The position numbers and the translations under genes were made by a program. Positions 24,315 through 50,115 of a stretch of DNA of 64,000 nucleotides are shown here, one piece after another. This stretch comes from Streptomyces sp. HUAS MG91 (GTDB lineage Bacteria > Actinomycetota > Actinomycetes > Streptomycetales > Streptomycetaceae). The stretch covers positions 4,092,001 through 4,156,000 of the forward strand of contig NZ_CP159534.1 in NCBI RefSeq assembly GCF_040529335.1, in the 5' to 3' direction. The first letter of the stretch is position 1. Each line of letters opens with the position of its first letter. The notes below the pieces were generated by a model. That model searched no databases. It was not told where the DNA came from and worked only from the letters and a program-made list of their open reading frames with translations.

Positions 24315-24386
24315 CGGCGTGTACACCCCGGCTCGCGGCGGCCGCGCTGCCACAGTGACCACGAATGACCCCCTATACCCCACTTC

Positions 24387-24403
24387 ATCGGTGACCTACC
24401 GAT
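24387..24403. promoter_or_regulatory. Inverted repeat directly upstream of the parA-like gene
   Basis: ATCGGT-GACCT-ACCGAT, perfect 6-bp arms, ending 12 bp before the parA-like GTG. It differs from the chromosomal parS. It could be the operator by which ParA or ParB represses the operon, or a partition site for this pair. Confidence 0.5.
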
Positions 24404-24415
24404 CCGGGAGCTTTC

Positions 24416-25189
24416 GTGGCACACGTACACGCGATCCTCAACCAGAAGGGCGGCGTCGGAAAGTCCACGCTCGCCGTGAACCTCGCCGCCGTGACGGCCG
24501 ACGTCCTCGGAGGCCCCCTCTCCGGCGGGGACGGCCAGCCGCCCGTCGTCGCCGTCTCCATCGACCCGCAGGGCTCCGCCGTGTGGTGGTCCGAGCGCGT
24601 CGGCGACGGCCTCCCCTTCGACTTCGTGCAGGCCCACGACGACCTCGCGGGCCTGGCCGCCCTGTCCCGCATCCCGTCCGCGCAGCACGTCTTCGTCGAC
24701 ACCCCGGGCTGGCTCGACCTCGCCGAGGGCGACGGCGCCGACCCGCTCGGCAAGGGCGCGGCCGCCGACGCGCTGCGCGCGGTGCTCTCCAACGCCACCG
24801 ACGTCATCGTCCCCATCGAGCCCGAGCCGCTCGGCTTCCAGCCCACCCAGCGCACGGTCGAGAAGGTCGTGAAGCCGCGCGGGCTGCCGTTCCGCGTCGT
24901 CATCAACAACTGGGACCCGCGCGACGGCAAGGCCGACCTGGAGCAGACCCGCGCCTTCGTCGAGGGCCAGGGCTGGCCGCTCGCCCGCACCGTCGTCCGC
25001 CACTACAAGCTGCACACCCGGGCCAGCGCGGACGGCCTCGTCGTCACCCAGTACGGCGCCAACAAGGTCGCCCTCCAGGCCCGCGAGGACTTCTTCCGGC
25101 TCGCCCTGGAAGTGGGCCTCGCCGCCATCCCGAAGCCCGCCCGCAAGCCGCGCGCGAAGTCCCGTACGAAGAAGAAGGTGACCGCCTGA
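24416..25189 (+). CDS. ParA-family ATPase (second, plasmid-like)
   Basis: 257 residues. The deviant Walker A motif KGGVGKST stands at residues 11-18 and VSIDPQGS marks Walker A'. Walker B-like VFVDTPGW follows. ParA ATPases use a Lys-dependent dimer switch to move ParB-DNA complexes. The Lys-rich tail (PRAKSRTKKK) could add DNA binding. The GTG at 24416 has GGGAG 5 bases upstream. The stop overlaps the ParB start (TGATG), so the two form an operon. The pair has no oriC neighbours such as gidB, rnpA or jag, so it is probably not the chromosomal parAB. Confidence 0.92.
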   Translation: MAHVHAILNQKGGVGKSTLAVNLAAVTADVLGGPLSGGDGQPPVVAVSIDPQGSAVWWSERVGDGLPFDFVQAHDDLAGLAALSRIPSAQHVFVDTPGWLDLAEGDGADPLGKGAAADALRAVLSNATDVIVPIEPEPLGFQPTQRTVEKVVKPRGLPFRVVINNWDPRDGKADLEQTRAFVEGQGWPLARTVVRHYKLHTRASADGLVVTQYGANKVALQAREDFFRLALEVGLAAIPKPARKPRAKSRTKKKVTA

Positions 25190-26013
25190 TGGGCCGCAGG
25201 ACCGATCTGTCCTCCCTGCTGGCGGCGGCCGCGGACGGCGAACCGGCCATGGCGACGGCGGTGCGCGGGCGCCCCGGCACCAAGCCGCTGACCGTCTCCG
25301 TGGGCGACCTCGCCGAGAACCCCGACAACCCGCGCCACGAGCTGCGCGACCTGGAAGGACTCGCCGAGACGGTCCGCGAGCGCGGGGTCCTCCAGGCCCT
25401 CGGCGTCGTCCCGGCCACCGTCTTCCTCGCCGCCCACCCGCACCACAAGGAGGCGGTCGGCTCCTCCCCGTACGTGGTCCTGCACGGCCACCGCAGGCTC
25501 GCCGCCGCCCGGCTGGCGGGCCTGGACGAGGTGCCCGTCCTGGTCCGCGACGACGCCACCCGCTCCGACGAGGACGCGCTCATCGAGAACGTCCAGCGCG
25601 ACGACCTCACCGAGCTGGAGCAGGCCCAGGCGATCCAGGGCCTGATCACCGCGTACGGCTACTCCCAGCGGCAGGTCGCCGCCCGCATCGGCAAGACCCA
25701 GGGGTTCATCTCGCAGCGGCTGTCCCTGATGAAGCTGCGCGAGGACCTTCAGGAGGCCCTCGCCGACGGCCGGGTCTCCGTCGAGGACGCCCGGCGCATC
25801 GCCCGGCTCCCCCGCGACGAGCAGGAGCTGCCCGGACCGGTCACCGGGGCGACCGTCCCCGCGGCCCGCCAGGAGAAGCGCGAGCGCCGGAAGAACGATT
25901 ACGGCGTAATCGAGCTCGACAGCCGCTCGACGCCCCAGGAGATCGCGGACGCCCTGCGCCGCCATCTCGCCCCGGCGGCGCTGGACCGCGTGGTGGAGCT
26001 GCTCGGCCGGTAG
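25189..26013 (+). CDS. ParB-family DNA-binding protein (partner of the ParA-like gene)
   Basis: 274 residues. The N-terminal ParB/Srx domain (about 35-145) has NPDNPR and the nucleotide-binding patch as GHRRLAAA rather than the usual GERR form. ENVQRDDLTELEQA follows, then a helix-turn-helix (YSQRQVAARIGKTQGFISQRL) and a C-terminal dimer region. ParB loads at its site and acts as a CTP-dependent clamp. The lower likeness to chromosomal ParB around the patch suggests a plasmid-type or specialised origin. Start codon overlaps the parA-like stop by one base. Confidence 0.92.
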   Translation: MGRRTDLSSLLAAAADGEPAMATAVRGRPGTKPLTVSVGDLAENPDNPRHELRDLEGLAETVRERGVLQALGVVPATVFLAAHPHHKEAVGSSPYVVLHGHRRLAAARLAGLDEVPVLVRDDATRSDEDALIENVQRDDLTELEQAQAIQGLITAYGYSQRQVAARIGKTQGFISQRLSLMKLREDLQEALADGRVSVEDARRIARLPRDEQELPGPVTGATVPAARQEKRERRKNDYGVIELDSRSTPQEIADALRRHLAPAALDRVVELLGR

Positions 26014-46849: not shown

Positions 46850-49045
46850 ATGCGCACTGGTGACCCCCTCCCTCCGGTGGAGGACGTCCTCGCCGCTCTC
46901 GCGACCGGCCTGTGGCGCTGGGACAACAGGGCGGGCACGGTCACCTTCGACACGGAGGCCGCCCGCCTCGTCGGGCTGCCCGCGCGGACGACGACCCTCA
47001 CGGAGTCCGGCGCCCGCGCCCGTTTCCACCCGGTGGACTGGAACGAGATCGACGGCATCATCCGGCTCGCCGTCGCCGAGGGCACCCTCGCCGAGGCCCG
47101 GCTGCGCGTCATGGACGACCAGGGCCGGGTCATCCGGACCGTGCGCACCCGCTCCAAGCCCGTGACGCACGGCGACGCACCGAACCTGTTCGAGCTGATC
47201 GGCACCCTCCAGGAGGTCGCCGAGCCGCCGCCCGGCGCCTCCTCCCGCGCCCCCGTCACGGGCGACTGGCGCCGCTCCCGCGAGGCGTTCCTGCTGGACG
47301 CGGGGCGGGCCCTCGCCGAGGCCGACTCCACGGCCGAGGTGCTTCGGGTCGCGGCCGGGCTCTCCATGCCGGGGTTCTCGCCGGACGGCCTCGCCGTGTT
47401 CGGCGTCGCGGGCGACCGGCTCACCGTCATCGGCCACCACGGGCACCAGCCCGGCGCCGAGGGTCCCTTCACCGACATGGACCTGGCCACGGACTACCCG
47501 GCGGCGGAGGTCTGCCGCACCGGTCGCGCCGTCTACCTCTCCTCGCCCGAGGAGTACCGGCGCCGCTATCCGGCGGCCTGGCCGCTCGCGGCCCGCTTCA
47601 ACCGGCAGTCCTGGGCGTTCCTGCCCCTGATCGTCGCCGGGCGCACCATCGGCGCGTGGATGGCGGGCTTCGCCTACCGGGTCACGTTCACCCCCGACGA
47701 GCGCTCGGTGCTGACCACGGTGGCCCGGATGCTCGCGCAGGCCCTCTCCCGGGCCGGGGTCGCCGAGTCGGAGCGCGCGCTGACCGACGGCCTGCAGAAG
47801 TCGATGCTGCCCACGATCGGCCCCGAGATCCCGGGCATGACCATCGCGGCCCGCTACGTCCCGACCGGCGGCGGCCTCCAGGTCGGCGGCGACTGGTACG
47901 ACATGATCCCGCTGCCCAGCGGCCGGATCGCCCTGGTCATCGGTGACGTCCAGGGCCATGACGTGCAGGCGGCGGGCCTCATGGGCCAGCTGCGGATCGC
48001 GCTGCGCGCCTACGCCTCCGAGGGCCACCGCCCCGACGCGGTCCTCTCCCGCGCCTCCCGCTTCCTGTACGGGATCACGGCCGACGCGGCGGACCCGACG
48101 GACCCGCGCTTCGCGACCTGCCTGTACGTCGAGGCCGACCCGGTCACCGGCACCTTGGAGATCGCCCGCGCGGGCCATCCGGACCCCGCCATACGCACCG
48201 CCGACGGCACGGTGATGATGCGCCCCACGGCGGGCGGCCTGCCGCTCGGCATCGACCCCGACGCCGACTACCCGACGACCCGGCTCGCCCTGGAACCCTC
48301 CGAGACGCTGCTGATCTGCACGGACGGCCTGATCGAGACGGGCGGGCACGATCTCGACTCCGGCTGGGCCCGGATCCGTACGACGCTGGAGGCGGTCCCC
48401 GCCGACGACCTGGAGCTGCTGGCGGACGCCCTCGTCCAGGCGGTCCACGGCCCGTCCTCGCACCACACCACGGGCCCGCTCGCCGACCGCCGTGAGGACG
48501 ACATAGCGCTGCTCCTGCTGCGCCGCGCGACCGCGTCGCGGGTGCCCGTCACGGCCCGGCGCACCGCCATGACCATCGCGCAGGCCGAGCCGGAGCGGAT
48601 CGCCGTCGCCCGCCAGCAGTTGCGCGAGCTGCTGCACGACTGGGCCGACGAGGACCAGGTCGACTCGGCGGTGCTGATGGTCTCCGAGATGGTCACCAAC
48701 GTGCTGGTGCACACCGACGGCGACGCCCTGCTGGTCGCCGAGGTCGGCCGCGGCTGCGAGGGCCCGCGCCGCCTGCGGGTGGAGGTGGCCGACGCCTCGG
48801 ACGACCTCCCGCACAAGCGCAGACCGGGCGAACTGGCGTCGTCCGGGCGCGGGTTGGTGCTGATGGAGCTGCTCGCCCAGAAGTGGGGCGTCGACCCGCG
48901 CGGCGAGGGCAAGAGCATCTGGTTCGAGCTGTACGAGCCCGAGGAGAGCGGCGCGGAGGAGTCCGGCGTGGAGGAGATCGGCCCGGTGGGCGTCACTCAA
49001 TCGGCGGTTTCACGTGAAACAGCCGGCTCCGACGGGCTCCCGTAA
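46850..49045 (+). CDS. Multidomain SpoIIE-type phosphatase with PAS, GAF and HATPase (RsbW-like) domains
   Basis: 731 residues: PAS-like (about 10-115, with LWRWDNRAGTVTFD), GAF (about 140-300), SpoIIE/PP2C (about 320-560; QVGGDWYDM, GDVQGHD, CTDGLIE, EDDIALLL) and a C-terminal anti-sigma-factor kinase-like HATPase (about 585-705; SEMVTNVLVHT, GRGLVLMELL). It may sense signals and both dephosphorylate and phosphorylate partner-switch proteins. ATG 46850 follows GGAG. The last residues, VSRET, are encoded by a parS palindrome shared with the convergent transporter gene (49-bp overlap). Confidence 0.95.
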   Translation: MRTGDPLPPVEDVLAALATGLWRWDNRAGTVTFDTEAARLVGLPARTTTLTESGARARFHPVDWNEIDGIIRLAVAEGTLAEARLRVMDDQGRVIRTVRTRSKPVTHGDAPNLFELIGTLQEVAEPPPGASSRAPVTGDWRRSREAFLLDAGRALAEADSTAEVLRVAAGLSMPGFSPDGLAVFGVAGDRLTVIGHHGHQPGAEGPFTDMDLATDYPAAEVCRTGRAVYLSSPEEYRRRYPAAWPLAARFNRQSWAFLPLIVAGRTIGAWMAGFAYRVTFTPDERSVLTTVARMLAQALSRAGVAESERALTDGLQKSMLPTIGPEIPGMTIAARYVPTGGGLQVGGDWYDMIPLPSGRIALVIGDVQGHDVQAAGLMGQLRIALRAYASEGHRPDAVLSRASRFLYGITADAADPTDPRFATCLYVEADPVTGTLEIARAGHPDPAIRTADGTVMMRPTAGGLPLGIDPDADYPTTRLALEPSETLLICTDGLIETGGHDLDSGWARIRTTLEAVPADDLELLADALVQAVHGPSSHHTTGPLADRREDDIALLLLRRATASRVPVTARRTAMTIAQAEPERIAVARQQLRELLHDWADEDQVDSAVLMVSEMVTNVLVHTDGDALLVAEVGRGCEGPRRLRVEVADASDDLPHKRRPGELASSGRGLVLMELLAQKWGVDPRGEGKSIWFELYEPEESGAEESGVEEIGPVGVTQSAVSRETAGSDGLP

Positions 49046-50115
49046 CGGCCCTTGAGCTCTCCGATGATGCCGAACGCGGCCGCCGTCAGCGGCACCGCGA
49101 GCAGCATCCCCAGGATCCCGGCGACGGAGGCCCCCGCGGCGATCGCCAGCATCACCAGCGCCGGGTGCATCTGCACCGTGCGCGACTGGATCATGGGCTG
49201 GAGGATGTGCCCCTCCAGCTGCTGCACCGCGAGGATCACGCCGAGCGTCCACAGGGCGATGACGAAGCCCCGGTCGGCGAGGGCGACGAGGACGGCGACG
49301 GCGCCGGAGATGGTGGCGCCGAGATACGGGATGTAGGCGCCGACGAAGACGAGCGCGCCCAGGCCCACCGCGCCCGGCACCCGCAGGATCAGCAGGCCGA
49401 TGGTGATGCACAGGGCGTCGATGAGCGCGATGAAGGTCGTCCCGCGCATGAAGCCCGAGATCGCCTCGAAGGCGCGGCGCCCCATCGCCTCGATGACCTC
49501 GCCGGCGGCGCGCGGGGCGACGGCGTGGGCGAGGCCCGCGGCACGGTTCGAGTCCTTGAGGAAGAAGAACGTGAGCAGCAGCGCGAGCACGGAGGTCGCA
49601 AGCAGCGAGCCGATCACGGAGAGGCCGGTGAGGACGCCGCCGGCCAGGCTGGAGCCCCACTTGGAGAGCAGGTCCTTGGCGTTGTCGGCGACATTGCCGA
49701 GGTCGTCGGCGCCGGAGAGCCCGAAGTGCGCGCGGATCCAGTCGCCCGCGTCCTGCACGGAGTCGACGATCTGGTCGCCGGTGTCGATGAGCGCCTTGAC
49801 CACGATGTACCCGGCGCCGCCGACGACGGCGATCAGGGCGACGCAGGTCAGCGCGGCGGCGAGCGCGCGCGGCACCTTGCGCCGGTTCAGCCACTCGAAT
49901 ACGGGGGCGAGCAGCGCGGTGCCGAGCAGTGCGAGCAGGACCGGGGTGACCGCCGACTTGAACACGACGCAGAGCCAGATGCCGACGGCGGCGACGCCGG
50001 TGACGAGCAGGGCCACCGTGCACCAGGCGGCGGTGCGGCGGGCCCCCTCGGGGAGCAGGGGCGCGCCTCTCGGGGGTCCTGCGGCCGGTTCCTGGGGCTC
50101 TCGGGTCGTCTGCAC
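48997..50115 (-). CDS. AI-2E-family transporter (PerM/YdiK-like)
   Basis: 372 residues with about eight membrane helices; the central part with SLLATSVLALLLTFFFLKDS and the C-terminal GHILQPMIQSRTVQMHPALVMLAI are family signatures. Members export small molecules or ions; a direct autoinducer role is not established for actinomycetes. GTG 50115 has only a very close GGGAG. The C-terminal SEPAVSRETAD includes the residues encoded by the parS palindrome that also ends the opposing gene. A pirin gene lies upstream on the same strand, with a terminator between. Confidence 0.88.
   Translation of the reverse strand: MQTTREPQEPAAGPPRGAPLLPEGARRTAAWCTVALLVTGVAAVGIWLCVVFKSAVTPVLLALLGTALLAPVFEWLNRRKVPRALAAALTCVALIAVVGGAGYIVVKALIDTGDQIVDSVQDAGDWIRAHFGLSGADDLGNVADNAKDLLSKWGSSLAGGVLTGLSVIGSLLATSVLALLLTFFFLKDSNRAAGLAHAVAPRAAGEVIEAMGRRAFEAISGFMRGTTFIALIDALCITIGLLILRVPGAVGLGALVFVGAYIPYLGATISGAVAVLVALADRGFVIALWTLGVILAVQQLEGHILQPMIQSRTVQMHPALVMLAIAAGASVAGILGMLLAVPLTAAAFGIIGELKGRYGSPSEPAVSRETAD
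49007..49020. promoter_or_regulatory. parS: Chromosomal parS site (ParB centromere)
   Basis: GTTTCACGTGAAAC is a perfect 14-bp palindrome equal to the core of the streptomycete and B. subtilis-type parS. It sits inside the 49-bp overlap of two convergent coding regions. Both strands read it in the same phase as GTT TCA CGT GAA AC(N), giving VSRET in both proteins. ParB of the chromosome (not the pair at 24416-26013, as far as can be judged) would load here. Confidence 0.93.

Follow-up and report, generated by a model that had tools for sequence, protein, structure and literature searches.

Results

The window analysed here is a 64,000-nucleotide stretch of DNA from Streptomyces sp. HUAS MG91, with a G+C content of 68-79% in 2-kb steps. 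Two convergent genes within it overlap at their coding ends, and the overlap contains a parS palindrome (Table 1). Pfam assigned GAF, SpoIIE and HATPase_c_2 domains to the product of the + strand gene and an AI-2E_transport domain to that of the - strand gene. The overlap is bounded by the stop codons of the two genes (TAA at 49043-49045 for the + gene, TGA at 48999-48997 for the - gene), and its length is 1 modulo 3, so that third codon positions face each other. The original prediction of a parS inside the overlap of these two genes is borne out by the sequence in both coordinates and letters. The translations of the open reading frames likewise confirm that the palindrome is read in the same phase on both strands, placing AVSRETA near both C-termini: the SpoIIE-type protein ends in ...QSAVSRETAGSDGLP and the AI-2E protein in ...EPAVSRETAD. 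The last Pfam domain ends ahead of these tails, at residue 692 of 731 in the SpoIIE-type protein and 351 of 372 in the AI-2E protein.

Table 1. Features of the overlapping gene pair (positions within the window).
Feature	Position	Strand	Basis
parS, 14-bp perfect palindrome GTTTCACGTGAAAC	49007..49020	.	Exact match to the origin-proximal motif, 16 copies in the genome
Tail-to-tail overlap of two convergent genes, 49 bp	48997..49045	.	Sequence and ORFs
Gene for GAF - SpoIIE phosphatase - HATPase_c_2 protein, 731 aa	46850..49045	+	ORF list, Pfam
Gene for AI-2E family transporter, 372 aa, start codon uncertain	48997..50115	-	ORF list, Pfam
VSRET codons GTT TCA CGT GAA ACA in the + gene	49007..49021	+	Sequence
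VSRET codons GTT TCA CGT GAA ACC in the - gene	49006..49020	-	Sequence

All 16 exact copies of the 14-mer in this 8.6-Mb genome lie at C1:4,141,007-4,350,440, that is, within 209 kb, a span that also holds dnaA (4,234,020) and parB (4,241,197). A base-composition model with 73% G+C assumed gives an expectation of 0.002 exact copies per genome, and the reversed 14-mer, used as a control, has no copy in the whole of this genome. Within the window the site is the sole parS-like sequence at up to three mismatches; dinucleotide shuffles average 0.02. Compared with the 16-mer form of parS, TGTTTCACGTGAAACA, it has one mismatch, at the first base, and the 14-mer core is perfect. It is the outermost of the 16 on its side, some 93 kb left of dnaA, and that side has only one other exact site (4,174,423). 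The parB side holds 14 of the 16, in keeping with a survey of 20 Streptomyces genomes that, in its available text, places 79.86% of parS to the right of oriC (PMC8743542). The palindrome and its origin span of about 200 kb are those of the chromosomal parS cluster known from S. coelicolor and S. venezuelae. The number of sites is also close: 16 parS were identified in S. venezuelae, nearly all ParB ChIP-seq peaks there matching parS (PMC4852455, available text), and the available part of a later study has ParB at 16 parS and one more, with spreading as far as 2.5-3 kb in each direction (PMC12511625). Judged by its sequence, clustering and origin position, the window site is very probably a genuine parS, as had been predicted, and the analogy with S. 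venezuelae makes it very likely that ParB binds there.

Four further sequences in the genome differ from the 14-mer by one base (C1:4210304, 4241128, 4278653 and 4323555). All of them fall inside the 209-kb span, which suggests that degenerate copies, too, function as parS or else are parS in decay. The chromosomal ParB gives a ParB_N match of 124.5 bits at C1:4241197-4241475, near oriC. A second gene with a ParB_N domain (46.6 bits) is present in the window at 25291-25596 (+), within the ORF 24319-26013 and about 124 kb away from the chromosomal parB.

We followed the distribution of the site through 141 loci with the AI-2E gene. A contig search supplied 51, of which 50 were named Streptomyces, and a further 30 and 60 were chosen from a list of genus genomes, with some genomes entering twice. 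In the genus list the gene was present at E <= 1e-100 in 303 of 392 genomes, and the 90 taken were mostly the best-ranked. A parS with at most one mismatch lies near the AI-2E gene end in 13 of the 141 loci, or 10 of 126 distinct rows of the tree; it is absent from the other 128 loci and 116 rows. Nine of the ten rows with parS belong to a single Streptomyces clade of 11 members (support 100). Seven of these nine sites are perfect and two (L002 and L006) have the one-mismatch form GGTTCACGTGAAAC; the remaining two clade members, L005 and L067, have no site. Given these two members without it and two with a mismatch, the site is dispensable. Streptomyces sp. PsTaAH-137 (L029) is among the clade members that carry it. 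In all nine distinct site-bearing members, our own genome included, parS lies within a convergent overlap of 46-151 nt; the overlapping frames are thus maintained wherever the clade has the site. The tenth row, the distant L140, differs: its parS is in the AI-2E tail only, and the SpoIIE-type gene ends 124 bp away.

On the tree, the presence of parS requires three changes, compared with a mean of 9.8 after shuffling, and well-supported branches alone force two of the three. Such changes might be independent gains in different lineages, for instance, or gains combined with losses. The tree was made by a quick method in which the placement of L140, on a long branch, is unsure; its ingroup excludes L048 (wrong frame) and L050, a distant locus that served as outgroup only. 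The variant GGTTCACGTGAAAC shared by L002 and L006 has one half-site altered, and their near sister L066 has a perfect site, so that the variant may be a site decaying or one being regained.

Anchoring an alignment of all nine site-bearing clade members on parS, we found 13 of the 14 columns invariant and the remaining one identical in 7 of 9, while each of the 48 flanking columns (24 per side) is shared by 3 to 8 of the 9. The distance from parS to the domains is also variable, 21-45 nt to the end motif of the AI-2E domain and 18-99 nt to the SpoIIE-type motif, as measured in six of the nine members (L004, L066 and L006 were left out because their motifs differ). Moreover, the codons that spell the site are rare among their synonyms (GTT 2.4%, TCA 2.8%, CGT 5.8% and GAA 12.3%); the VSRE codons have a joint probability of 4.8e-6 when the residues and the window's codon usage are taken as given. 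Because the 14 bp are nearly invariant while their flanks change, and because rare codons are used, selection appears to act on the DNA. The DNA site would then dictate both protein tails, and not the reverse, the DNA being what is selected and the proteins tolerating it. Conservation within the clade, taken alone, leaves shared history inseparable from DNA selection, though the flanks have diverged widely.

These data also bear on whether the palindrome arose by chance or is a degenerate leftover with no function. Its outermost position, the two clade members that lack it and the two with a mismatch would all suit such an origin. A chance palindrome is, however, rejected by the 16 clustered copies where 0.002 are expected, and 14 bp that hold while their flanks diverge do not behave as a leftover, so that we consider either origin very improbable.

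The original prediction also held that the two protein ends fix the site in place. Both genes could be placed in 111 distinct loci, and in 61 of these they overlap; overlaps of at least 14 nt occur in 48 distinct loci, and 39 of the 48 have no parS (the overlap count excludes L048, L050, L074 and L077, which have misplaced ends). Among the 128 loci without parS, neither SRET nor VSRE was found in the tails inspected, which were the C-terminal 80 residues in the AI-2E frame and the C-terminal 30 residues in the SpoIIE-type frame; the SpoIIE-type end was located in 112 of these loci and not in 16. Furthermore, the one-base change in L002 and L006 turns the tails into GSRET and VSREP, and L140 has its parS in one tail alone. 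The protein ends therefore do not fix parS, and VSRET ends are not kept in the inspected tails of homologues lacking the site.

The same observations weigh on the possibility that VSRET is a functional C-terminal motif of one or both proteins, with the palindrome as its by-product. AVSRETA does lie in frame near the C-terminus of both proteins, and VSRET is present in both tails of seven of the nine distinct clade members. Yet such a motif would have to be absent from the tails inspected at every parS-less locus, be written in rare codons, stand at a variable distance from the domains and occur in only one of the two proteins of L140; nor would a protein motif need an exact 14-bp palindrome confined to the origin region. 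The rare codons and the parS-less loci lead us to reject the motif, the chance of which we put as slight.

That both tails nevertheless read VSRET follows from the geometry of the overlap. In 53 of the 61 overlapping pairs the length is 1 modulo 3, with third codon positions opposed. A palindrome in that phase has three readings: one is open and gives VSRET opposite VSRET, and the other two set FHVK opposite a TGA stop. Read in the usual overlap phase, the palindrome escapes a stop codon only as the double VSRET; the shared reading phase is forced by the palindrome together with that usual arrangement of third base opposite third base, and the VSRET common to both proteins needs no special explanation.

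We then consider where parS sites lie relative to genes in general, from a survey of 162 exact parS in eight Streptomyces genomes, with genes assigned by a home-made codon-usage caller whose single assignments may err, above all for starts and small genes. A first survey covered 90 of 96 sites in five genomes, the stretches beyond our own genome being picked for holding sites, and a replication covered 72 of 72 sites in three more genomes, some of the site positions being common to the first survey. Convergent gaps hold 52 of the 162 sites, compared with 3.4% of A/T-matched positions (at least 8 A/T in 14) and 1.9% of all positions; in the replication only, the figures are 17 of 72 and 2.9% of matched positions. 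Codirectional gaps are enriched too (53 of 162 sites and 18.8% of matched positions). The other classes are gene tails (13 sites; 6.3% of matched positions), gene heads (13; 9.0%), divergent gaps (10; 18.5%) and gene bodies (16; 42.0%), with one site in a convergent overlap and four at unclassified stretch ends. Considering intergenic sites only, 52 of 115 are in convergent gaps, where 8.4% would be expected. Sites in different genomes are partly one ancestral position, and collapsing those with the same flanking families, which corrects this roughly, leaves 15 convergent among 35 intergenic families (49 families in total; p about 5e-8). By these gene calls the window site is the only parS in a convergent overlap, and seven parS in gene tails face a convergent neighbour, the L140 locus among them. 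Placement at convergent ends is thus a general tendency of Streptomyces parS, and the window site is its extreme case.

In some places parS itself provides the stop codon of a gene (ACG TGA): L180:14476 and 14497 (in G013), L159:18565 (in our own genome), L167:10587 and L188:10237. At L180 the two parS are 21 bp apart, and each ends one of two convergent genes. Elsewhere the central GTG of parS is the best-scoring start of the downstream gene (L155:18423, L161:19481, L172:6166, L175:14019, L183:14881 and L193:6258); these starts could be genuine, or could stem from the way in which our gene calls choose starts.

Discussion

It is highly probable, in our judgement, that the window holds a genuine origin-proximal parS that arose in one clade within the tails of two convergent genes and is held there by selection on the DNA and not on the proteins. 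It would have been born in tails that change fast, in a gene pair whose ends commonly overlap in any case, and would have appeared in one Streptomyces clade, either by a single gain with losses or by several gains. ParB-CTP dimers are expected to load on the site and to slide up to a few kb either way, over both genes; ParB there would help to build the segrosome and recruit SMC. Binding of this DNA by ParB would be the selected feature that maintains the site.

ParB loading might in addition regulate both genes, by roadblock, silencing or termination, and so couple segregation or sporulation to the phosphatase and the transporter. Spreading as far as 2.5-3 kb each way, as the available text reports for S. 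venezuelae (PMC12511625), would cover both genes, and parS is enriched between convergent genes generally. We looked for a terminator-like hairpin in 48700-49300 and found none; a hairpin terminator at the gene ends is rejected, and its lack would favour a role for ParB. In the accessible part of one paper, a mild excess of ParB silences most genes near parS in P. aeruginosa, where repression is also described at a parS upstream of two genes, but genes beside parS in B. subtilis are unaffected by the loss of ParB (PMC7022226). Moreover, 128 of the 141 loci have no parS where the AI-2E gene ends, so the gene pair does not need it. Such regulation is therefore unlikely, though it could coexist with a parS that is maintained by selection on the DNA.

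The window parS is unlike the known sites of the Streptomyces cluster in that it sits in two overlapping coding ends. The nearest likeness is parS1 of C. glutamicum, which according to the available text also lies in coding sequence (trpCF) and is the furthest from oriC in its cluster, nine of the ten parS of that species being intergenic and one coding (PMC7083940); parS1, however, occupies one gene, and the window parS the tails of two convergent ones. With convergent overlapping ends in general, the locus has in common the third-opposite-third phase and variable, low-complexity tails; it differs in that its overlap also houses a predicted protein-binding DNA site. Neither a parS in two overlapping coding ends nor a convergent-end bias of parS was reported in the literature searched, which covered few subscription papers. 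The locus offers a clean case in which a DNA-binding site, and not protein function, appears to write the C-termini of two proteins together; it also assigns the emergence of one centromere site to just one of the clades sampled.

We regard the window site as a real parS that is unusually placed. Of more interest is the convergent-end bias, a lead that offers a testable link between the places where ParB and SMC load and the transcription of neighbouring genes. We tentatively suggest, as a possibility that we do not favour strongly, that Streptomyces parS is kept selectively where convergent genes meet, whether in the gap, on the stop codons or within the overlap. Loading of ParB and SMC would then either have to avoid promoters or exploit transcription that converges on the loading point. 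In yeast, cohesin collects at convergent gene ends, and converging transcription could in the same way hold ParB clamps and SMC in place. Against a gain for SMC, its departure from parS is hampered by head-on transcription in Caulobacter (PMC5583512, available text); since a loader in a convergent gap meets head-on transcription on both sides, the bias brings SMC no obvious gain. The bias would be most simply explained by what convergent ends lack, namely promoters that could be blocked and conserved coding sequence that could be broken.

The tight origin-proximal cluster of our own genome is not seen in G012:C1, where parS is dispersed over 0.1, 0.7-0.8, 2.0-2.4 and 8.1-8.4 Mb, reflecting either rearrangement or an assembly error.
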